In this document: positions 866 to 32,560 of the stretch, piece by piece | Layout: the number at the start of each line of letters is the position of its first letter | Position numbering within the stretch: position 1 is the stretch's first letter | From: an uncultured bacterium | GTDB lineage: Bacteria > Actinomycetota > Actinomycetes > S36-B12 > CAIKAW01 | Assembly (NCBI GenBank): GCA_903825575.1 | Contig: CAIKAW010000006.1 | Location: 1-34,167, forward strand | DNA length: 34,167 nt | Direction: 5' to 3' | Notes under the pieces: model-generated | Database searches by the model: none | Told to the model about the DNA's origin: nothing | What the model saw: only the letters and a program-made list of their open reading frames with translations | Position numbers and translations under genes: made by a program

Positions 866-2260
866 CTACTCTGCCGCCGTTAACTCGAGGACGAAGTCGG
901 CCTTGTCGCGTACGGCACAGTCTGGGCACGTCCAGGCATCCGGTACGGCTGACCAAGGGGTTCCCGGCGGGAAACCTTCGTGGTCGTCGCCCCGGGCAAT
1001 GTCGTACGTATAGCCGCAACCGGGGCAGCGTGCTTGTCGTACGGATACCGGCACAACCCGGTCCGAAGGTGAGGGCCCCGGTTGCGGCGGCTCGGAGGCG
1101 TGGGGGAGTGCGCCCGCATAGCGCATGAGGATTCGGCCTTTCTTGCGCGGTGAGATGTTGGCCAGTGACAGGTCACCGTCAAGGTGCGTTAGCACCCGCG
1201 GGTCCATGACCTTGCGCCACAGCGGTGGAACAAGGGCAAGCAGGATCATCCCGGCATACCCCGTGGGCAGCGCCGGAGCCTCGGCGTAGTCGCGCAACGC
1301 CTGGTAGCGCCGGGTTGGGTTGGCGTGATGATCACTGTGTCGCTGCAGGTGGTAGAGCAGCACATTGGTCGCGACGTTGTTGGAGTTCCAACTGTGACGC
1401 GGCTCGACGCGTCCGTAGCGCTGGCCATCGCCAACCCGTTCCCGCAGCAGCCCGTAGTGCTCGAGGTAGTTCACCGCTTCAAGGAGCGTGAAGCCCATGA
1501 CAGCCTGAAGCACGAGGTAAGGCAGGACGCCAATGCCGAGCCAAAGCATGACAGCGCAAAACAGGACGAGGGTCATAAGCCAGGCGCTCAGCACGTCGTT
1601 GCCCCAGTTCCAGGGCGACTGTTTGCGCCGAGCGAGCCGCTTGGCCTCAAGTCGCCAAGCACTTTGTAGGGAACCGAAAACCGAGCGCGGCCAGAATTGG
1701 TAGAAGTTCTCGCCCATCCGACTGCTAGCCGGATCATTCGGCGTCGCGACGCGAACGTGATGTCCGCGGTTGTGCTCAATGTAGAAGTGGCCGTATCCGC
1801 TTTGGGCAAGCGCAACCTTTGCGAGCCAGCGCTCGACCGGCTCACGTTTGTGGCCTAACTCGTGCGCGGTATTGATTCCGAGGCCAGCGATAAACCCGAG
1901 CGTTACGGCCAATCCGATGCGGTCCGAAACCGTCAGGTTGGCGTGCATCAGGTAGGCAAGCGCGACCAAGAACCCCGTGTACTGCACCGGTAGGAAAAGG
2001 AAGGTGATCCATCGGTAGTACTTATCGGCCTCGAGTGCAGCTATGGCTGCATCCGGAGGAGCGCCCGGGTCAAGTCCCACGACCAGGTCAAGCAGCGGGA
2101 TCAGGCCAAGAATCACGATTGGACCAATCCATAAGAACGCCGACACCTTGGTAGCCGCGAAGCCTGACACAGCGGCAAATGGCAAAAGCGGCATTAGGAG
2201 CGCCACCGGCCACACGTATCGTTTGCGGTCGCGCCAGACGTTTGCGGTTCCGTCGGCCAT
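866..2260 (-). CDS. alkB: Alkane 1-monooxygenase (AlkB type) fused to C-terminal rubredoxin
   Basis: 464 residues. Integral-membrane non-heme di-iron hydroxylase that oxidises medium- or long-chain n-alkanes to 1-alcohols. All signature histidine boxes are present: HELGHK (133-138), EHNRGHH (162-168), the NYLEHYG motif (264-270) and LQRHSDHHA (305-313), among several hydrophobic membrane segments. After a Pro/Ser linker (about 385-405) comes a rubredoxin domain with CPGC (412-415) and CPDC (445-448), the electron donor. Natural AlkB-rubredoxin fusions are known from actinomycetes such as Dietzia, Prauserella and Nocardioides. The last knuckle reads CPDCA rather than the usual CPxCG. A strong GGGAGGGG ribosome-binding site lies just upstream of ATG 2260. 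No rubredoxin reductase or alcohol dehydrogenase is nearby, so the reductase must be elsewhere. Confidence 0.93.
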   Translation of the reverse strand: MADGTANVWRDRKRYVWPVALLMPLLPFAAVSGFAATKVSAFLWIGPIVILGLIPLLDLVVGLDPGAPPDAAIAALEADKYYRWITFLFLPVQYTGFLVALAYLMHANLTVSDRIGLAVTLGFIAGLGINTAHELGHKREPVERWLAKVALAQSGYGHFYIEHNRGHHVRVATPNDPASSRMGENFYQFWPRSVFGSLQSAWRLEAKRLARRKQSPWNWGNDVLSAWLMTLVLFCAVMLWLGIGVLPYLVLQAVMGFTLLEAVNYLEHYGLLRERVGDGQRYGRVEPRHSWNSNNVATNVLLYHLQRHSDHHANPTRRYQALRDYAEAPALPTGYAGMILLALVPPLWRKVMDPRVLTHLDGDLSLANISPRKKGRILMRYAGALPHASEPPQPGPSPSDRVVPVSVRQARCPGCGYTYDIARGDDHEGFPPGTPWSAVPDAWTCPDCAVRDKADFVLELTAAE

Positions 2261-3685: not shown

Positions 3686-4242
3686 TCGCTCCAGAGGATT
3701 TGCCCGAAGTTCTCGACGAATTCAGGATGAGCAATAGCTTCCTAGGCAAGATCGTCGAGGTGTGCCTAGTTACCGAGGATCATCAGCGGACAATGGAGGG
3801 CTTGGTTCGCTTAGGCATTGGGCCGTTCCGGGTCTTCACATTCTCACCCGAAACGGTCACTGAGCAGACTTACCGTGGCGATGCCAGCCCGTTCTCTCTG
3901 ACCGTGTGCTTCGCGACCAATGACGACCTCACCTTTGAGATCATGCAACCAGTGTCGGGTCGCAGCGTTATGCGCGAATTCCTTGACAAGCATGGCGAAG
4001 GAATCCACCACATCGCCTTTGACTGCAACGGTATGCCTTGGGATCAGCGGCTAAAGCTGTTCACTGATCGCGGTTTTGCGCAGACCCAGAGCGGGCGTTG
4101 GCGCGACCAGAACGCCTTCTCATTCTTTGACACCGAAGCGGCCACGACCACGTGTTTTGAGACCTACCACTTCCCGGATGACTTCGTATTCCCTGAGCCG
4201 GACCGCTGGTACCCCGCGCCCCCGCCGATTGCTAGCGTCTGA
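3682..4242 (+). CDS. VOC-superfamily protein (glyoxalase / methylmalonyl-CoA epimerase-like)
   Basis: 186 residues. The vicinal-oxygen-chelate fold is indicated by the paired beta-alpha-beta-beta-beta layout: first module starting near FLGKIVEVCLVTEDH (residues 20-34), then DLTFEIMQP with a candidate Glu ligand, then EGIHHIAFDCNGM opening the second module and a terminal CFETYHF strand. The internal spacing resembles methylmalonyl-CoA epimerase or Glyoxalase_4 proteins. Those enzymes bind a divalent metal through His/Glu, but the reaction here is unknown. It starts at GTG 3682, overlapping the DUF1989 stop by 4 bases, which suggests the two proteins act on one pathway or in one complex. It may be a small-molecule epimerase, lyase or dioxygenase. 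Confidence 0.8.
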   Translation: MIAPEDLPEVLDEFRMSNSFLGKIVEVCLVTEDHQRTMEGLVRLGIGPFRVFTFSPETVTEQTYRGDASPFSLTVCFATNDDLTFEIMQPVSGRSVMREFLDKHGEGIHHIAFDCNGMPWDQRLKLFTDRGFAQTQSGRWRDQNAFSFFDTEAATTTCFETYHFPDDFVFPEPDRWYPAPPPIASV

Positions 4243-4267
4243 CGCGGATTCGATCTGTTCGGGCAAG

Positions 4268-4834
4268 TCAGTTCGTTAGAAGCGCGGCGGCTACGTTCTC
4301 CCAAGAGATGTCGTCGGCGTCCCCATGGGCCTGCGCAAGAATCGAGCCGTCTCGGCAGACGACGAACGCCCACACGTCATCGTCGTTTGGGATGTCCAGT
4401 GATCCGCGCAAAGCACCAACGTCGGTGTAGACGGTGATCGTGCGGGCCAGCACATCCGGATCCCCGATGCCGGCAGTCATACCACCGTCGATGAACCGGC
4501 GCACCGGACGCCAAGACGCCGACAAGGCCGGCACCTCGACAACCGCAAGTGGCATCGGTTGAGTCTGACCCCGAGGTGTGGCCGGTACACCAGCCTTGAT
4601 CGCGCGCACAATCCAAAGGTCCACTTGGCTTTGTTGGTGACGCTGAAAAGCAACAACGACAAGCGTTCGGTCACCCGGCAAGTCGGCCGGAAGGTTCAGA
4701 TCAACACCTAGCAATGTACGTCCGGCGACGCTAGGGAACCGAAGCGAAGAACCATCGCCAGCTCTGGCGGATGTCGGGCTCACTTGTCCAGAATGGCACC
4801 TGCTTTGAACGGCAATGTGGCCGGGTTCAAACAT
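4268..4834 (-). CDS. Thioredoxin-fold (ATP10-like) protein of unknown function
   Basis: 188 residues. The core RTLLGVDLNLPADLPGD followed by RTLVVVAFQRHQQSQVD looks like the beta-alpha start of a thioredoxin/AhpC-like fold, and the ITVYTDVGALRGSLDIP and VWAFVVCRDGSILAQAHGDAD segments match its second half. The active-site position has QRHQQ rather than CxxC, so it is unlikely to be a thiol oxidoreductase; this pattern resembles ATP10-like proteins. There is no signal peptide. The start is uncertain: ATG 4834 is used, but GTG near 4783 gives a form beginning just before SPTSARAG. It lies 40 bases downstream of the pilus operon on the same strand, so it may be read through from it, although a link in function is unproven. 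Confidence 0.6.
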   Translation of the reverse strand: MFEPGHIAVQSRCHSGQVSPTSARAGDGSSLRFPSVAGRTLLGVDLNLPADLPGDRTLVVVAFQRHQQSQVDLWIVRAIKAGVPATPRGQTQPMPLAVVEVPALSASWRPVRRFIDGGMTAGIGDPDVLARTITVYTDVGALRGSLDIPNDDDVWAFVVCRDGSILAQAHGDADDISWENVAAALLTN

Positions 4835-4874
4835 CGGTCCCGTACAAGACTCTTACTCGCAAAAGTACATGTAG

Positions 4875-7529
4875 CTACTGTTCACGGAAGGTAAGGACTG
4901 TGGTCTTTCCGTTTGCAACCGACACCGTGGCCGTCGCAGTTACAGACCCTGCGGTTGCCGAGAGTGTCATGCCAGTGCTGACGGGAACGGCAATGCTGGG
5001 TTGCCAGGCCGCTGGCGGACTAGTTCCGCAGAAATTCTGGCCCGAACTGGTCTCGTCATTGTCGACGCAGTCACCTACGGGTAACTGAGTGGGACTGCCC
5101 TCTTGGAGCACGTTTAGCCCATAGAGATCAACGCCGTAAGTGATCAGCACGCCACCTGTGCCGGAACCCTGAATGTGTAGGGCCAGACCCAGCGAATCGG
5201 AGGGTGCATACACAGCGCCCTGCAACCCGATAGTCCCGTTCGTTGGGTTCCCGCTCGACGCTAGTGGGTCTGCCAATAGCGCGCAGTTGGTGGACGAGCC
5301 GCTAGTCGCAAGTTTGCCCAGATCGATCGATTGGGCGGAGCACGGTGAACTCGGCGCGTACAGCGTGCCGATGTTCGAAGTACCGATGTTCTGCCAGGTG
5401 ACCGTGCCGTCGGTCACGCTAGCCCCGACCGTCAACGGCCAGATAGTGCTGCTGCCGATGTTTGTCCAGGTAACCGTGCCATCGGTGACGGTCTTGCCAA
5501 CGGTGGTGGGCCAGGTCGGAGAGCTAGTGGACGACTTTCCAGCGGTCGTGACGCTGTATAGGTAGCCGTTCGAGGTCGCTGGGGCGAGGATCGTTCCAAG
5601 CGCGTAGGCGGTCGACTTAATCCAGGTGCCGGGGGCGGTAGTCACGCTCGTTGGTGCGGTAGCTCTAGTTGTCCCGGCGGTGGTCGCCTGGTAGAGGAAG
5701 CCATTGGCGGTAGCCGGAGCGACGACGTCACCGGTGTTTTGCGAATTGCTGGCCGTCCAGGTTGCACTCGACTGGTTGAACAGCAACGGCGCATTCGGGC
5801 CTATGTTCGTCCACGTGGCGGTGCCGTCAACTAGTGTTCCGCCGATGGTCAGCGGCCAAATAGTGCTGGTTCCGACATTCGTCCAGGTGACGGTTCCGTC
5901 GCTCACTTTGGCGTTCAGCGTTGTTGACCAAACTGGTGTGGTGCCGCCTGACTTGCCAGCCGTGGTGACCTTGTAAAGATACCCATTCGAGGTTGCTGGC
6001 GAGACCGCCGCGTTTAGTGCGTATGTCGTAGACGGTGACCAAGTTCCAGCGGCTGCCGTGATTGACGTTGGTTCGTTCGCACTCGAGACGCCTGCCGTTG
6101 TTGCTTCATAGACGAAGCCGTTGCCGGTGCTAGGGCGCACGACCGAACCCAGGGTGTACGAAGTGGTGGTGGCGTGGGTACTGCTCCAGGCGTTGGCTGC
6201 AAACCCGTTGTACCCGTAGACCGAGATCGGCTCAACGCCGGCGCTCGCCATCGCGGAGTTGAATCCGCCGCAAACCTGCAGGGCGTTACTTATCCCGATC
6301 TGGTTTCCGTACTTGCTGTCTGCTACCACGATGCCATTTCGCATTGCCGAAGCGACAGAATTCCCGACAGTCAGTAGCACTCCCGTGTTGCTGCCATTGG
6401 CGACCTGAGTGCTGGGCGTGTCACAGGCCAGTCGTGCAGCGGTATTGATCGGGTTTGTCGAACTCGGCTGGTCGCCGGTCGGGCCCCCGTAATAGCCGGC
6501 AATCACGCGGGTGCCCCCGAGCGCTGAATTGCCTTTGATCACCCAGTTCTGATCCATCCCAAGGTAGTAGTAGCCCGGTTCGAGAATGACCAACGCGATT
6601 GTCGAGTTCTGTAGGAAATAGCAATTGCTAGCGCCCACTTTTGGTGATCCGCCGGTGAAGCCGTTCAGGGTGCTGGCGGTCCAGTAGCCGGGGGACAGCA
6701 CGATCATGTAAGACGTGCTGCCAACGTAGTTCTTAGTCGGGAGTGCCACGCATGATGCGGATCCGTTCGGAATGGTTCCGGTCGCAGCAGCACCTACCGA
6801 CCCGTTGAAGACGCTTGACGTCGACGGGAGCTGCGTTGGCATGGGAATTGTCGGCAACGTCGGGTTAGTAGCGATCACTGGCCCAGCTGAGGCCCAAGTT
6901 TGGGCGACGTTCGGACTTCGGTAAGTCATGGTGCCGGGGTAGACGACTGTCTGGACGCAGCCAGGCGTGGTCATAACCGCGCTCGGGAAGACTCCGGCAG
7001 TCATGGCGCATTTTGCAGCCCCAAAGTTGTCACCATTACCACTGATTTCCAATTGACCGGCGGCGGCGAAGTTGCCTTGCACAAGGAACGTGCCGCCGGG
7101 TCCGGCATTAGTGTCGTTCTGAACCAAGCTGGTGTTGGGGTCGTTCAAGATCACTGAGTTTGCCCAGCCGTAACTTAGGTTGAGAAGACCCGTGCCGCTC
7201 GTGTCCCCGTTGCCCGCTACGCCAAATGTGGATCCGGAGCAGGTGACCGGGACAGTGTTGACGGTTACTAACGTGCTTCCACTGGCACCACAATTCGCGC
7301 CCAACGCGAGGTAACCTTCGGCTGCTTGCATGGCGTTTGCCGCAGCGAGCCGATTCCGTTCCAGCGCGGACAATTGTGAGCCACTCTTGAGGCCAGTTTG
7401 TGCGAACGCGAACAACAGAGTCACGGTCAATCCGACGAAGATCAGGACTCCTAGAACGACCAGAAGTGACGCGCCGCGATCGCTCATAGAGCCACGACGT
7501 TCAATCCATGACGCGCGCCGAATCGTCAT
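4875..7529 (-). CDS. Large modular pilus-associated protein (PilX-like N-terminus, duplicated binding modules)
   Basis: 884 residues, not recognised as a whole. The N-terminus (SDRGASLLVVLGVLIFVGL, about residues 16-34) is a basic stretch followed by one membrane helix, like PilX-type minor pilins, but it lacks the Glu5 of true prepilins. The middle is Gly/Ser/Thr/Asn-rich beta-like sequence with paired cysteines. Residues about 448-577 and 591-717 are two copies of a ~130-residue block. Each block contains two NGxxYxxTTAG motifs and two DGTxTWxNIG motifs, a pattern known from phage tail and CBM5/12-like modules. A C-terminal strand-rich domain follows. The start is ATG 7529, overlapping the previous gene's stop (ATGA); a longer in-frame start at 7586 is less likely. 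As last gene of the pilus operon it may be a tip adhesin. Confidence 0.75.
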   Translation of the reverse strand: MTIRRASWIERRGSMSDRGASLLVVLGVLIFVGLTVTLLFAFAQTGLKSGSQLSALERNRLAAANAMQAAEGYLALGANCGASGSTLVTVNTVPVTCSGSTFGVAGNGDTSGTGLLNLSYGWANSVILNDPNTSLVQNDTNAGPGGTFLVQGNFAAAGQLEISGNGDNFGAAKCAMTAGVFPSAVMTTPGCVQTVVYPGTMTYRSPNVAQTWASAGPVIATNPTLPTIPMPTQLPSTSSVFNGSVGAAATGTIPNGSASCVALPTKNYVGSTSYMIVLSPGYWTASTLNGFTGGSPKVGASNCYFLQNSTIALVILEPGYYYLGMDQNWVIKGNSALGGTRVIAGYYGGPTGDQPSSTNPINTAARLACDTPSTQVANGSNTGVLLTVGNSVASAMRNGIVVADSKYGNQIGISNALQVCGGFNSAMASAGVEPISVYGYNGFAANAWSSTHATTTSYTLGSVVRPSTGNGFVYEATTAGVSSANEPTSITAAAGTWSPSTTYALNAAVSPATSNGYLYKVTTAGKSGGTTPVWSTTLNAKVSDGTVTWTNVGTSTIWPLTIGGTLVDGTATWTNIGPNAPLLFNQSSATWTASNSQNTGDVVAPATANGFLYQATTAGTTRATAPTSVTTAPGTWIKSTAYALGTILAPATSNGYLYSVTTAGKSSTSSPTWPTTVGKTVTDGTVTWTNIGSSTIWPLTVGASVTDGTVTWQNIGTSNIGTLYAPSSPCSAQSIDLGKLATSGSSTNCALLADPLASSGNPTNGTIGLQGAVYAPSDSLGLALHIQGSGTGGVLITYGVDLYGLNVLQEGSPTQLPVGDCVDNDETSSGQNFCGTSPPAAWQPSIAVPVSTGMTLSATAGSVTATATVSVANGKTTVLTFREQ
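5379..6188 (-). repeat. Two-copy internal repeat inside the large pilus-associated gene
   Basis: The blocks at 6188-5796 and 5759-5379 encode closely similar ~130-residue units, each with the order NGFxYxATTAG, NGYLYxVTTAGKS, DGTVTWTNxG, STIWPLT, DGTxTWxNIG. Similarity is visible in the DNA as well (for example around 5540-5580 and 5960-6000), so the duplication appears fairly recent. The spacer between copies is Asn/Ala-rich. Confidence 0.8.
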
Positions 7530-8116
7530 GAGGTCTGCCGCACTACAAAGAAGTCGAAGGTGCGCGACTTTGTGCCTGCCTGCCACGCGCGTGACAAAGT
7601 GCCTGAAAGGTCGATGGCTGCCGTAGTAGCACCGCAGGTCGATGACGTCGCGGATGCCGCGTTGTAGCAGACCGGAGTAATCGTTGTGGATAGTTCAGTG
7701 AGCAGAGTCTGGTTGGTGGAAGTTGTTCCGTGGCATTCGCTCCGAGTCAGGTTCGTGCCCGACTGGCTGTAGAAGACGGCCGTTACCGTGGCGTCGCTCG
7801 GATTTGAAGGCACCAGTTGCAGCAAGACCGCACCGCTGCCGCAAGCCGGCGCATTCGCGTTTACCTGAATGCTGCCGGCCGTGGCTCCGGCGACGTCGGC
7901 ACTGAGGGCCGTGGAAGCGAACATGACTTGGTTGTCTTGCGACAGTCCTGCCTTCGCAGGCACTGAACTTCGCGCGACCGTGTAGACGAGGCCAACGGAC
8001 ACCACGCTTAGCAACCCCAGAATCATGACGGAGACGGCCAATTCGACCAAGGTCAGGCCGCGGTCGTCGGCCGGTCGGTCGGCGCGATATCCAAATGCCC
8101 AGCCAGTCCGGTTCAT
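7526..8116 (-). CDS. PilW-like type IV minor prepilin
   Basis: 196 residues. It carries a class III (type IV) prepilin signal: a basic leader ending DDRG, then LTLVELAVSVMILGLLSVV, with cleavage expected after Gly and Glu at mature position 5, followed by a hydrophobic helix. The rest is a Ser/Thr/Ala-rich globular domain with several cysteines (ACGSG, SECHG, PVCYN, STCGA) that could form disulfides outside the cell. The start is ATG 8116, whose last bases overlap the stop of the upstream prepilin gene (ATGA), preferred over the upstream in-frame start at 8185. It is the fourth gene of the pilus operon. PilW-like proteins help prime pilus assembly; the exact class is inferred from position and size. 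Confidence 0.8.
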   Translation of the reverse strand: MNRTGWAFGYRADRPADDRGLTLVELAVSVMILGLLSVVSVGLVYTVARSSVPAKAGLSQDNQVMFASTALSADVAGATAGSIQVNANAPACGSGAVLLQLVPSNPSDATVTAVFYSQSGTNLTRSECHGTTSTNQTLLTELSTTITPVCYNAASATSSTCGATTAAIDLSGTLSRAWQAGTKSRTFDFFVVRQTS

Positions 8117-8571
8117 TTGCCGACCACCACGGTTAGAGTTTGGGAGCCGCTGGTCGCGCGTCCAGTGATGTTGATCCCAGTCCATTGGACGGGTACGACT
8201 ACTTCAAGCACCCCGTGGTCGCTCACTGCATCGCAGGCCGTGAAGGTGTTCGTGCCTGATGCGATCGTTCCGTAGAAGTAGTTCGCCGTCCCCAGAGTGA
8301 CCCCAGAAAGGCTTGCATCCTCCGCGGACAAGGCGGTGTCGATCTGGGATGTGTTCGCGCATGAGGTGACGTTGAGGTTCTGAACCCGTTGGGCAACGGA
8401 GTACATCGCGGTTCCCAAATTGGCCTGAGTGTCGCGCGCGCTGGTAAATGAGAATGAGTCAAGCGCCCCGGCGACCAGAGTGGCAATGGCCCCCGAAAGG
8501 AGCACCAGCGACATCAGAATCTCGACCAAGGTTTCACCGCGATCGTTGCTGGCAAAGTTGTGCTTAGCCAT
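8113..8571 (-). CDS. PilV-like type IV minor prepilin
   Basis: 152 residues. The leader ends NDRG and is followed by ETLVEILMSLVLLSGAIATLV: a prepilin peptidase site with Glu at both mature positions 1 and 5, a form seen in actinobacterial pseudopilins where Phe/Met at +1 is replaced. One membrane helix is followed by a small domain with two cysteines (TSCAN, TACDA). The start ATG 8571 shares a base with the pilC stop (TGATG), so translation is coupled. Minor pilins of this kind sit at the pilus tip and assist initiation. The third gene of the operon. Confidence 0.82.
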   Translation of the reverse strand: MAKHNFASNDRGETLVEILMSLVLLSGAIATLVAGALDSFSFTSARDTQANLGTAMYSVAQRVQNLNVTSCANTSQIDTALSAEDASLSGVTLGTANYFYGTIASGTNTFTACDAVSDHGVLEVVVPVQWTGINITGRATSGSQTLTVVVGK

Positions 8572-9728
8572 CAGTGCACCTGTCGGAAGATCCCGTACAT
8601 GGCAGAGATTAGGGCTACCGCAACAAAGCCGACGGAAATCCCAACCCCCACAACTACGGCGGGCTCGATGAGGGTCGTGAGGCGCTTGAGTTTGTAATCA
8701 AGTTCGGCAGCGTAGTAATCGGCAGCGACGTCGAGTTGTTCGGGAAGCGACCCAGTCTCCTCACCAACTCGAATCATCTGAAGCGCCGTGCCCGGCATGA
8801 CCCCGGTGGAGTTAAGGGCCGAACTCAGGGATCCACCGTTGATTACAAGTCGTTCAACCTCGACGATTGCTTCCACGTAAACGGCGTTGGAGAGGGCTTC
8901 ACCGGCGACACCGAGGCCAGCGAGAAGGCCGACGCCCGAACGTTCCAGCGATGCAATCAGGCGGCAGAACCGTTCAGTCAGGGCCAATTGCACGATCGGT
9001 CCCACAAGAGGCAACCGCAGCAGCAATCGGTCGAAACGCAACTTGCCCCAGGGTTGGTGACGGACCCAGGCGAGGCCAATTCCGAGCATGATTAGGGCCG
9101 CCGCAATGGCGAGCCCCCATTGACCTACGAAGTGCGCGCCGTTGAGAAGTGCACGGGTTGCAAATGGGAGCTTGGCGTTGAGGCTTGTGAAGAAGATCTG
9201 AAACTTGGGTAGTACTGAGATGCAAAGGATTGAGACGGTGACCAGCGCCATGCCAACGACGATTGCCGGGTAGGTCAGCGAACTCTTCACCTTTTGCCTG
9301 GCCTCGAGGTCGCGCTCTAGATAGGTGGCAAGTTGATCTAGCACATCGTCGAGTCGACCGGTCATTTCGGCTGCGCGCATCATGCGGCGATAGAAGTGTG
9401 GAAAATCCTTCGGGTAGCCATCGATCACTGCACTGAGCGGAACGCCGTCGGCAAGCTGGACCTGCATTCCAGTGGCGACGCGACGGACAGCCTCGCTCTC
9501 TCCGTCAGTCCGCAGAACGTCAAGGGCCCGCAACAAGGTAATCCCGGCTCGAGTGAACGCCGATAGCTGCCGTGACATGTGCACCAGTTCGGAGCGCTTG
9601 ATGTGCTTTTGAGTGATATTCGGGTTCAAGGTGAATCGCGGCGCGGCCTTATCCCGTGGCGACCCAGCTCGCCGGCGCCCGTTTCCAGCAGGAGACGAAC
9701 CGGAAGTGACTTCATCGGTCAGTGCCAT
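8571..9728 (-). CDS. pilC: Type II secretion/type IV pilus inner-membrane platform protein PilC
   Basis: 385 residues. It has the two tandem T2SSF (GspF/PilC) domains, about residues 50-175 and 255-375: the first opens with MSRQLSAFTRAGITLLRALDVL, the second with ERFCRLIASLERSGVGLLAGL. Each is followed by a hydrophobic segment (YPAIVVGMALVTVSILCISVL and VVVGVGISVGFVAVALISAMY). PilC is the membrane platform that couples the PilB/PilT ATPases to pilin polymerisation. The N-terminal ~35 residues are basic and low-complexity. ATG 9728 has a good GAGGT site upstream. The motor ATPases are not in the window and must be encoded elsewhere. Confidence 0.93.
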   Translation of the reverse strand: MALTDEVTSGSSPAGNGRRRAGSPRDKAAPRFTLNPNITQKHIKRSELVHMSRQLSAFTRAGITLLRALDVLRTDGESEAVRRVATGMQVQLADGVPLSAVIDGYPKDFPHFYRRMMRAAEMTGRLDDVLDQLATYLERDLEARQKVKSSLTYPAIVVGMALVTVSILCISVLPKFQIFFTSLNAKLPFATRALLNGAHFVGQWGLAIAAALIMLGIGLAWVRHQPWGKLRFDRLLLRLPLVGPIVQLALTERFCRLIASLERSGVGLLAGLGVAGEALSNAVYVEAIVEVERLVINGGSLSSALNSTGVMPGTALQMIRVGEETGSLPEQLDVAADYYAAELDYKLKRLTTLIEPAVVVGVGISVGFVAVALISAMYGIFRQVH

Positions 9729-9828
9729 TTGGTTACCTCATTTGCTGGATTGGGCATCAAGTCAGAACGTGGCTGCTGCGCCGGCATCGAGTCGGGCTTG
9801 CTTTCGAATCACTGGACTCGGATTTGGT

Positions 9829-9869
9829 TGAACGGGTAGGTGCGAAGCAGTTCCACACCCACCCGTTCA
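9829..9869 (-). terminator. Hairpin between major pilin and pilC (attenuator or processing signal)
   Basis: Arms 9829-9842 (TGAACGGGTAGGTG) and 9856-9869 pair over 14 positions with one mismatch and a 13-base loop. Two smaller palindromes follow toward the pilin gene (9869-9881 and 9883-9894). There is no T-tract on the minus strand. Such a structure behind a pilin gene would let the pilin be made in excess over pilC and the minor pilins; that is inference. Confidence 0.55.
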
Positions 9870-9906
9870 GGCCAAGGGCCTAGATCAAATGATCTTGGAC
9901 GCTAGG

Positions 9907-10260
9907 TCAGCAGGTGGCAGGGCCGCCGGCGCCGGTCGTAACGGAAACTGCGCCGGTTGCCGATGAGTAGGCGAACGTGACGCCGGTCAGCGCCGGGGTG
10001 GACTTGAGGTATGACGGCACCAGCGAAGCGATAGCAGCTGGGTAGGTGTTGGAGTTGTTGGCGTAGTACGCCTCAACTGCGGTCTGCGCCTCGTTCAGCG
10101 TCTGCTTGCAGGCAGCTGCTGCACCATTGTTGGTGACACCACTGACTGAGAAGACCACGATTGCGGCCAAGATACCGATGATCACGATGACGATCAGAAG
10201 CTCGATCAGCGTGAAGCCGTCCGCGCCGTCTTCCTGGTAGCGGCGTACGCGTTCCATCAT
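9907..10260 (-). CDS. pilA: Major type IV pilin (PilA-like)
   Basis: 117 residues. The short leader MMERVRRYQEDGADG ends at Gly15, followed by FTLIELLIVIVIIGILAAI: a textbook type IV prepilin site with Phe1 and Glu5 in the mature protein. The globular part has exactly two cysteines, Cys51 and the terminal Cys117, suiting the disulfide that closes the pilin D-region. ATG 10260 is chosen over the longer frame because AAGGAG stands 6-7 bases upstream; the extra residues from 10338 would break the leader pattern. Hydrophobicity and small size mark it as the fibre subunit. It is the first gene of the operon and is preceded by a long leader region. Confidence 0.92.
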   Translation of the reverse strand: MMERVRRYQEDGADGFTLIELLIVIVIIGILAAIVVFSVSGVTNNGAAAACKQTLNEAQTAVEAYYANNSNTYPAAIASLVPSYLKSTPALTGVTFAYSSATGAVSVTTGAGGPATC

Positions 10261-10432
10261 TTCTTTCTCCTTTAGGGACGGCCCGGGTAGTGGCCTTTTG
10301 GTTGGACGATTTGTCCAATGCCGGGAACTCTCGGTCACTTAGGGCAATGCCGCAAACGCGTGAAACGCTTTGGTTGAATCTTCAGGTTTTTGCAACTTAC
10401 CTGCCACCTAGTACTTCTCGTCGCTATCAGAA

Positions 10433-10458
10433 GATCACGGAAAGTAGTGATCGCACTA
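10433..10458. promoter_or_regulatory. Overlapping palindromes, possible operator upstream of pilA
   Basis: GATCAC(N8)GTGATC spans 10433-10452 and TAGTG(ATCG)CACTA spans 10445-10458; they share GTGATC, so the two structures are mutually exclusive if formed in RNA. As DNA they look like a dimeric regulator site. No regulator gene is adjacent, so the protein is unknown. Confidence 0.4.
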
Positions 10459-10658
10459 AGTTCTTCTCATGGTTTCTTCATTGTGGTCACGCAACATCAC
10501 TGCACTGCCAAGTAACGCAGTTGCCGCTACTGGCATTTAGCAGGTCTTGGATCCAGAATTGAGATAGCAGAGGCCGCTGCTGGACATCGGCGAGGTCACC
10601 TAGAGTAGTTGCGACTACTGCGCTGGGTGTCGGTCTGGTGGCTGCCTCAACTTGTGAA

Positions 10659-10664
10659 TACGCT
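10659..10664 (+). promoter_or_regulatory. Putative -10 element of a leaderless promoter (methyltransferase)
   Basis: TACGCT lies exactly 6 nt before ATG 10671, and the bases between (CCGGTG) offer no Shine-Dalgarno. It supports the ATG 10671 start over the upstream in-frame start at 10638. Confidence 0.45.
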
Positions 10665-10670
10665 CCGGTG

Positions 10671-11351
10671 ATGAACTCAACGGATGCCGCCGATCCCTAT
10701 GAGGCAATCACTTCGGCCAAGCGCGCCTATGCGGTTGGCAGTAGCCCCGAGGCGATGCGCGCGTTCTACGACACTTGGTCGACAACATATGACGACGATT
10801 TCGGCGAGGCCGGCGGCTATATCTACCGAGCCCAAGTTGCGAACGTCTATCTGTCACAGGCGAATTCCGACGATGTACCTATAGCCGATGTTGGTTGTGG
10901 CACCGGGTTGGTGGGCTTGGCTCTGGCGTCATCGGGCCGACCGGTTGATGGGTTCGACGTGTCACTTGGGATGCTCGCCAAGGCCGGCGACAAGCACGTG
11001 TACCGCGAGTTGATTGAAGCTGATCTAACAATCGGCCCCAAACAGCCAAGTGCTTATGGCGCGGTGGTTAGTTCCGGAACATTCACGGTCGGCCATCTAG
11101 GTCCTGATGCGTTGGCGAAGGCCCTGCATTTGGGGCGAACATCTGCGCTGTGCGTGATCGGTATCAACAGTCAGCACTATCGCGATGCAGGCTTTGCTGA
11201 CTGTGTAGCGAAGTGGACCGAGTCCGGGGCGATTAGCGATCTGCAAGTCCGCACTGTGCCTATCTATCGGGATGCGGGCAACCCAGAAGATCCTGCGGAC
11301 GTTGCTCTTGTGCTGGTATTCCGATTGGCAAACGCCGCTCTGCTCACCTGA
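10671..11351 (+). CDS. Class I SAM-dependent methyltransferase (METTL27/WBSCR27-like)
   Basis: 226 residues from ATG 10671. The SAM-binding motif I, PIADVGCGTGLVGLALA, lies near residues 69-85, with the acidic end of strand 2 at GFDVS and a later VVSSGTF strand. The pre-motif AFYDTWSTTYDDDF resembles the Williams-Beuren METTL27 group of methyltransferases rather than rRNA or quinone enzymes. Substrate unknown. It faces away from the pilin operon and converges on the SIMPL gene; a 16-bp hairpin at its 3' end includes its last codons. The start rests on the TACGCT element 6 bases upstream. Confidence 0.8.
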   Translation: MNSTDAADPYEAITSAKRAYAVGSSPEAMRAFYDTWSTTYDDDFGEAGGYIYRAQVANVYLSQANSDDVPIADVGCGTGLVGLALASSGRPVDGFDVSLGMLAKAGDKHVYRELIEADLTIGPKQPSAYGAVVSSGTFTVGHLGPDALAKALHLGRTSALCVIGINSQHYRDAGFADCVAKWTESGAISDLQVRTVPIYRDAGNPEDPADVALVLVFRLANAALLT

Positions 11352-30747: not shown

Positions 30748-30841
30748 GTGACGTCGGTGGGAGGCCACCGGTTAGTGCCCGTCCGAGTCCGAAGCTATTT
30801 CGGTCTTGACACGGGCCCTTGTTATCGCCCGAGAGGTGCCA

Positions 30842-32560
30842 GTGCCGTCGTCGAAATCCCCAGTCAAGGCCGGTAAGTCGGGCACCACATCCAAGCCAGC
30901 GGCGAAGAAGAAGCCCGCTGCTTCCGCAAAGTCCAAGCCAGTTGCGGCCAAGAAGGCCGTGCCGGCCGCGAAGGCCCCGGCCAAGAAGGCCGCTCCGGCC
31001 AAGAAGGCCGCTCCGGCCAAAGCCCCGAGCAAGAAAGCTGCTCCCGTAGCAAAGGCCCCGGTCAAGAAGGCTGCTCCCGCAGGCAAGGCCCCTGTCAAGA
31101 CGGTCGCCCCCGTAGCAAAGGCCCCGGTCAAGAAGGCCGCACCGACGAAGAAGGCCGCCTCAACAAAGGCGGCTCCGGCCAAGTCAACTCCGGCCAAGTC
31201 CGCTCCCGCCAAGTCCGCTCCCGCCAAGGCTGCTCCTGCCAAGGCTGCTCCTGCCAAGGCTGCTCCGGCCAAGGCTGCTCCCGCCAAGGCCCTGCAAGCC
31301 GTTCCTGCAAAGGCGGCGAAGGGCAAAGTCGCAAGCGGATCAGACCTCGCGCCGGTCGTCAGTCTGGTTCCGGACCTTGAGGACCTTGGCATTGAGGTTG
31401 AAGCGTTGGTGTTGGATGGCGAGATTGTCGCCGTCGGGCTCGATGTTGAAGATGTCGATGTCGCCAGCCTGGAAGTGGTGGCCGAACTTGAGGTCGAACT
31501 CGAAGTTGAACTAGCCCAGGACTTGGCTGAGATCGACACGGACGAGACTCCCGCTGCTCCGGCTGCCGCCGAAGAATCTGACTCGGAAACGTTCGTGATC
31601 TCAGACGTCGATGATGCCGACGAGCCGGTGCAACAAGTCATCACCGCTGGTGCCACGGCCGACCCAGTCAAGGACTACCTCAAGCAGATCGGCAAGGTCC
31701 CGCTGCTGAACGCCGAGCAGGAGGTCGAACTTGCCAAGCGGATCGAGGCTGGCCTTTTCGCCGAAGAGAAGATCAACGGCCCTAAGTCGCTGAACCCCAA
31801 GTTGCGCACCGAGCTTGAATGGATCGCCGAAGACGGACGTCGCGCGAAGAACCACCTGCTGGAAGCAAACCTTCGACTCGTCGTCTCGCTTGCCAAGCGC
31901 TACACGGGCCGTGGCATGTTGTTCCTCGACTTGATCCAAGAAGGCAACCTCGGTCTGATTCGCGCCGTCGAGAAGTTCGACTACACCAAGGGCTACAAGT
32001 TCTCGACGTATGCGACGTGGTGGATTCGGCAGGCCATCACTCGTGCGATGGCTGACCAAGCTCGCACCATTCGGATTCCAGTACACATGGTCGAGGTAAT
32101 CAACAAGCTGGCGCGTGTTCAGCGTCAGATGCTGCAGGACCTTGGCCGGGAACCAACGCCTGAAGAGTTGGCCAAGGAACTGGACATGACTCCCGAGAAG
32201 GTTGTCGAAGTTCAGAAGTACGGCCGCGAGCCAATCTCGTTGCACACCCCACTTGGTGAGGACGGAGACAGCGAGTTCGGCGATCTGATTGAAGACTCCG
32301 AAGCGATTGTTCCGAGCGACGCGGTGTCATTCACACTGTTGCAGGAGCAACTTGAGTCGGTCCTAGACACGCTGTCTGATCGGGAGGCGGGCGTTGTGCG
32401 TATGCGCTTCGGTCTGACCGACGGTCAGCCGAAGACGCTTGACGAGATCGGCAAGGTCTACGGCGTTACGCGCGAGCGCATCCGCCAGATCGAGTCAAAG
32501 ACCATGTCCAAGTTGCGTCACCCGTCGCGTTCGCAGGTCCTGCGCGACTACCTGGACTAA
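30842..32560 (+). CDS. sigA: Primary RNA polymerase sigma factor (SigA/RpoD/HrdB)
   Basis: 572 residues from GTG 30842, GAGAGG 5 bases upstream. Residues 1-165 are Lys/Ala/Pro-rich (repeats of APAKK/APAKA), and an acidic stretch follows to about 265, the extension typical of actinobacterial SigA. Then region 1.2 ([16 protein letters not shown]), region 2 with [20 protein letters not shown] and the -10-binding [17 protein letters not shown], region 3, and region 4 with the -35 helix-turn-helix [20 protein letters not shown]. It directs transcription of housekeeping genes. In-frame TTG 30806 upstream is judged not to be the start. A hairpin after the gene ends transcription. Confidence 0.96.
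30954..31309 (+). repeat. Tandem low-complexity repeats in the sigma factor N-terminal region
   Basis: DNA units near GCTCCGGCCAAGAAGGCC and GCTCCTGCCAAG repeat many times, encoding APAKK and APAKA. They are imperfect 12-18 bp units, a known feature of actinobacterial primary sigma factors. Length may vary between strains by slippage. Confidence 0.85.

Follow-up and report, generated by a model that had tools for sequence, protein, structure and literature searches.

A large K-type minor pilin with a nested phage-type CBM5/12 cassette, a probable tip adhesin, in an uncultured actinobacterium

The last gene of a type IV pilus operon in an uncultured actinobacterium codes for a large pilin, here called X, whose core holds a cassette of probably four CBM5/12-like modules. 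In our proposal, X is a modular pilin of the tip that binds a surface glycan through its phage-type cassette and would thereby serve as an adhesin. We consider this reading probable, though well short of certain: the location at the tip is deduced from homology and from the loss of Glu5, and the binding from the fold and kinship of the modules. The cassette is, we infer, of phage origin. Modular pilins with grafted binding domains are already known and widespread (PMC8179133), and thus X is of a known kind. Judged against open-licence papers, X is new in three respects: the cassette is inserted internally into a K-type pilin, it consists of nested CBM5/12 modules of phage type, and the actinobacterial family of X is large and has a variable site. 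Hereafter, the window denotes the whole stretch of DNA analysed (34,167 nucleotides).

Results

The operon and its last gene

The reading frame of X comprises 884 codons on the minus strand, with the ATG at 7529 and the stop at 4875; read on the plus strand, 4875-7529 contains many stops. The start codon of X and the stop codon of the pilin gene before it overlap by four bases (ATGA). The operon has the order pilA-pilC-pilin-pilin-X, all on the minus strand (Table 1), in agreement with the first-pass annotation, which had placed X at the end of a pilus operon. No gene for the extension ATPase (pilB) was found in this operon; the genome encodes its PilB homologues at C53 and C4. Neither a promoter-like site upstream nor a terminator-like excess was detected within 4200-10700.

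Elsewhere in the window, 866-2260 (minus strand) by eye codes for an alkane hydroxylase of the AlkB type with a rubredoxin fused at its C-terminus (HELGH, HNRGHH, HSDHHANP and two CxxC pairs), and 30806-32560 (plus strand) for a primary sigma factor whose N-terminal extension is very long, rich in Lys, Ala and Pro, and made of KAAPAK-type repeats.

Table 1. Features of the pilus operon and of X (window coordinates)
Feature	Position	Strand	Evidence
X, 884-residue K-type (GspK/PilK-like) modular minor pilin	4875..7529	-	ATGA overlap with upstream pilin; C53 paralogue 48% identical over N-core; family in 24/395 class genomes
Class III signal peptide (residues 1-19; expected cleavage site behind G19), then alpha-1 helix (about 20-77); no Glu5	7299..7529	-	Sequence; model helix 18-77; Glu5 absent in 31/31 family members
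Conserved core, N-terminal part (landmarks PGYW..PGYYY, GVLLTVGN, LQVC, PISVYG)	6201..7298	-	Alignment with paralogue and named-genome homologues
Insert, residues 444-721, missing from paralogue; probably four CBM5/12-like modules as two nested pairs	5367..6200	-	Comparison with C53 paralogue
Repeat copy 1, residues 446-577: A1 N-part, complete B1 (5865-6047), A1 C-part	5799..6194	-	
Repeat copy 2, residues 585-716: A2 N-part, complete B2 (5451-5630), A2 C-part; copy used for modelling	5382..5777	-	
Conserved core, C-terminal part (landmark GAVYAP ... GVDLYGLNV ... TVLTFRE)	4878..5366	-	Alignment with paralogue and homologues
J/W-like minor prepilin, Glu5 present	7526..8185	-	PF07963 and TIGR02532
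I/V-like minor prepilin, Glu5 present	8113..8571	-	Weak PF07963; sequence RGETLVE
PilC/GspF platform protein	8571..9728	-	PF00482 E 4.9e-52; TIGR02120
Major pilin PilA/GspG-like	9907..10338	-	PF07963 2.9e-07; near-copy in C53 operon

The pilin-type membrane N-terminus that had been read from the sequence is present in X (RG followed by ASLLVVLGVLIFVGL). It has the traits of a type IV pilin, namely a class III signal peptide ending in G (RGSMSDRG followed by ASLLVVLGVLIFVGLTVTLLF), a hydrophobic stretch of about 20 residues and a long alpha-1 helix. The full-length AlphaFold model, with a pLDDT of 36, is unusable for the core fold or the exposure of the insert; the same low-confidence model has a long N-terminal helix at residues 18-77, with a pLDDT of about 70 at 20-40. 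The core of X amounts to ~600 residues. Direct scans of X against Pfam, NCBIfam and PDB sequences gave no match, and no GspK/PilK family profile of Pfam or NCBIfam matched up to an E-value of 1. X is therefore not filed as a GspK protein, but as one that would work like it.

A family of large K-type pilins

The same genome encodes a paralogue of X at C53, in an operon of the order pilB-pilC-pilin-pilin-X-pilA (L005:2885-9519). Over the core, this paralogue shares 48% identity with X; it runs straight through the insert site, and the major pilin of its operon is almost identical to the PilA protein of the X operon. The presence of a complete sister operon suggests two pilus types that differ mainly at the tip.

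A contig scan with the window core as the query found no relatives. We used a profile built from six cores for a class-wide search, which detected the family in 24 of 395 genomes. Two profiles were dropped as too diverse, and full-length homologues replaced fragmented ones, which misaligned the C-terminal core. One match of the first class-wide search (L008) was discarded as spurious, since it is by eye serine/threonine kinase-like. A second scan yielded 28 named loci, in Streptomyces, Kribbella, Kutzneria, Lentzea, Amycolatopsis, Actinoplanes, Nocardioides, Pimelobacter and metagenome-assembled genomes of Acidimicrobiia. Both pilB and pilC lie upstream at 24 of these loci, and homologues of X are thus regularly found with pilus genes. 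All 31 family members checked lack Glu5, with L, I, M, F or V at position +5. One homologue (L047:5008-7250, in G031) has an in-frame stop about halfway, after which the frame retains similarity to the family.

No Pfam or NCBIfam family covers X-type proteins, which apparently form an unnamed, actinobacteria-wide family of large K-type pilins. The first-pass annotation had suggested a new class of actinobacterial pilus adhesin. This holds insofar as the large K-type family is widespread and apparently unnamed; it does not for the CBM repeats, which in the data searched occur on pilus proteins of one genome only, nor for the design, which falls within known modular pilins.

Two nested pairs of modules in the insert

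The two ~130-residue motif-bearing copies noticed earlier are real: they align over 132 columns without gaps, with 59% amino-acid and 61% DNA identity, and their BLOSUM62 score is 436, as against 64 +/- 10 (maximum 102) in 500 shuffles. Of the 132 codons, 101 are not the same in the two copies: 47 carry synonymous changes only and 54 change the amino acid. Together with the DNA identity, these counts indicate that the duplication is old and that both frames stayed open. Construction by module duplication, as had been proposed, is thus supported.

Each copy contains the motifs NGF/YxY...TTAG and DGT[VA]TW twice and hence consists of two modules. It runs from the N-part of module A (46-50 residues) through a complete module B (58 residues) to a 21-residue tail, which repeats the C-terminal hairpin of B (WPxTxGxxxxDGTxTWxNIG). 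When joined, the A N-part and the tail can be aligned to B: copy 2 needs a single gap of two residues, copy 1 the same gap and a four-residue overhang. Module A is therefore probably interrupted by module B, which, judging from the sequence, gives four modules in two nested pairs. At the level of its predicted strands, the repeat model fits this order.

Fold and sequence relatives of the modules

Repeat copy 2 was modelled with an alignment including 58 phage relatives (mean pLDDT 82.7), and the model has the fold of CBM family 5/12. A Foldseek search of the PDB gave weak E-values (0.05 and up) and a consistent list, comprising CBMs of chitin de-N-acetylases, the receptor-binding domain of the cyanophage Pam1 tailspike, receptor-binding proteins of Agrobacterium phages, and chitinases. 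With VIA-align, model residues 52-114 matched the C-terminal domain of the Pam1 tailspike with a Z-score of 9.4 (1.3 A over 57 residues). The next matches were CBM12/CBM5 domains of chitin deacetylases and chitinases (Z 4-6), including a chitin deacetylase CBM (Z 6.2, 2.0 A over 50 residues) and several chitinase CBMs (Z 4-5). The initial description of the repeats as phage-tail/CBM-like is thus supported, and their fold is not that of an unrelated filler.

The only PDB sequence matched by the repeat profile is the chitin-binding domain of chitinase A1 (ChiA1; E 0.027). The CBM_5_12 family (PF02839) is matched by 20 of 60 alignment members, which are phage relatives (best 7.4e-06); the window repeat had no match to it up to an E-value of 1 and none at 10. 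PHROG 20658 (head decoration) matches X at 1.1e-28 and the single copies at 3e-16 and 1.5e-17. We found no proven ligand for phage modules of this kind.

Among predicted viral structures, 17 matches pass 1e-3, including tail fibre, baseplate and major tail proteins; an actinophage is represented by a protein of Gordonia phage Skog, with 51% identity over 59 columns. The module is very common in IMG/VR, with at least 377 confirmed among the 600 pattern matches listed, and is carried there by tail sheath, major tail, head closure (Hc3) and head-tail adaptor proteins. The order N-part, B and tail recurs in phage proteins: twice in the tail sheath L114, in L191 and, by eye, in L238. The nested pair thus appears to be itself an element of phage type. 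In the environmental phage tail sheath (L114:2686-5280), two nested CBM5/12-like pairs split the match to the sheath profile. A tblastn search of cultured phages with the whole insert gave no match at 1e-5, and the whole insert had one plasmid match, in Burkholderia; an idealised consensus module as the query matched eight phages.

In the class, the module was found in six of 346 genomes, and in the order in one of 148, the source genome. In all the data searched, CBM repeats on pilus proteins were found in the source genome only. Two genomes of one genus have single module copies in open frames of ~4300 codons (G179:C20:42753-42932 and G156:C37:84129-84308). A weak module match at G000:C22 was rejected, since it runs antisense to a kinase-like ORF with a stop.

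A variable insertion site

The site is bounded by the landmarks LxC...(P)(I/V)xVYG and G(T/A)xYAP, which are 82 residues apart in G020, 90 in the C53 paralogue and 350 in the window protein. In most relatives measured the spacing is 223-272 residues, corresponding to a common domain of 160-180 residues, and in Streptomyces it is about 710, corresponding to tandem copies of that domain. Such tandem domains are seen in the X homologues L042:4078-7899 and L132-L134 (Streptomyces). No Pfam or PDB relative of the 160-180-residue domain was found.

In a tree of the cores, the window and C53 proteins are sisters (1.00), joined next to G020/G035 (0.985). The insert is missing from the C53 paralogue and from the nearest relative, G020. 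Because neither has a domain at the site, the simplest account is that the insert was gained on the window branch. The G020 homologue (L045:2750-7291; 1513 residues) carries several AHGL-type repeats elsewhere in its core, one of which matches E1_FCCH (PF16190).

Discussion

Known tip complexes are capped by a K subunit that lacks Glu5 (PMC10191384; PMC9934059). The I- and J-like pilins and X would start the assembly of the filament, and X would end up at its distal tip as a cap, since without Glu5 no subunit could dock above it. A loop of the extracellular core would be extended by the four CBM5/12-like modules, made by duplication, and exposed, as we assume of a module insert. Displayed at the tip, these modules would grip a surface glycan multivalently (chitin-like or another bacterial or algal polysaccharide), and the pilus would work as a grappling adhesin. 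The X operon, itself devoid of pilB, may be served by the pilB gene of the C53 or C4 operon. As the C53 operon encodes an almost identical major pilin and a putative tip protein that lacks the cassette, pili of two kinds, with and without the cassette at the tip, could be made by one cell.

The modules might alternatively be a structural spacer, rigid CBM5/12-like beads that lengthen the tip protein without binding a glycan. Phages do carry the module on proteins other than receptor-binding ones (head closure Hc3, head-tail adaptor and tail sheath), the tryptophan of the PxW motif is lost in the N-parts of A1 and A2, i.e. in two of the four modules, and most relatives have an unrelated domain at the same place. 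However, the closest structural match is the receptor-binding C-terminal domain of a tailspike, followed by chitin-binding domains, and the B modules retain the W, the Y and the PxW motif. We regard a mere spacer as unlikely, if worth keeping in mind. The chance that the insert is an assembly chimera, or a recent phage insertion that broke a pilin gene, appears minimal. The module is otherwise phage-borne and missing from the rest of the order, but the reading frame has no interruption, the flanks on either side align with the paralogue in the same order, insert and core agree in GC content (0.61 against 0.59-0.60), and the codon differences between the repeats speak of an old duplication.

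It is also conceivable, if quite improbable, that the operon builds a secretion- or competence-type pseudopilus, in which X would act like GspK or ComGG, mainly in assembly and in the capture of substrate or DNA, its modules engaging a secreted or taken-up ligand rather than a surface. This would suit the absence of Glu5 from X, as from GspK, the absence of PilT from the operon, and the best-scoring families of PilA and PilC, GspG and GspF, respectively. Nevertheless, the scores of both proteins to pilus and secretion families overlap widely, PilT-like ATPase genes are present elsewhere in the same genome, and CBM-type domains would be an odd choice for protein export.

As a putative tip adhesin, X can be compared with several known systems. 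It combines a pilin N-terminus with a non-pilus, CBM5/12-like domain, as modular pilins do (Raynaud 2021). The PilB and PilC proteins of Streptococcus sanguinis likewise have a class III N-terminus and non-pilus domains and are predicted to lie at the tip (PMC8179133, PMC9934059); the lectin module of PilC binds glycans (PMC8179133, PMC9934059). Their modules are at the C-terminus of a small pilin that retains Glu5, whereas X has a tandem phage-type CBM5/12 cassette inside a large core and lacks Glu5. X resembles GspK/PilK in its bulk, its lack of Glu5 and its position after I- and J-like pilins in the operon, but differs in matching no profile and in the other pattern of its core. Its modules share the fold and the W...Y..G..V..NG..Y pattern with CBM 5/12 domains (ChiA1, ChiB, ChiC and Vibrio chitin deacetylases); in contrast to those, they have an extra DGTVTW hairpin, form nested pairs, fall below the Pfam threshold and are putative binders. 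Phage decoration modules (PHROG 20658, the Pam1 tailspike, the L114 sheath and the Skog protein) are alike in sequence, fold and nested pairs, but X is a cellular pilin and not a virion protein. Among open-licence papers, we found none joining CBM5 with a type IV pilin.

In a broader reading, which we hold with more doubt than confidence, the core loop might be an exchange site for receptor-binding domains at which lineages swap heads: the 160-180-residue domain in most genera, tandem copies of it in Streptomyces and a captured phage CBM cassette in the window. The latter would have re-armed the tip, possibly for gripping other microbes.

The ways in which type IV pili acquire new binding specificities are an open question, and actinobacteria are where it has been studied least. 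Here, one genome holds putative tip pilins with and without a binding cassette. The insertion site is defined and common to a wide family (including Streptomyces, Kribbella, Lentzea and Amycolatopsis), and the nearest kin of the cassette are phage virion modules. The recruitment of phage receptor-binding modules by cells as pilus adhesins thus becomes testable.
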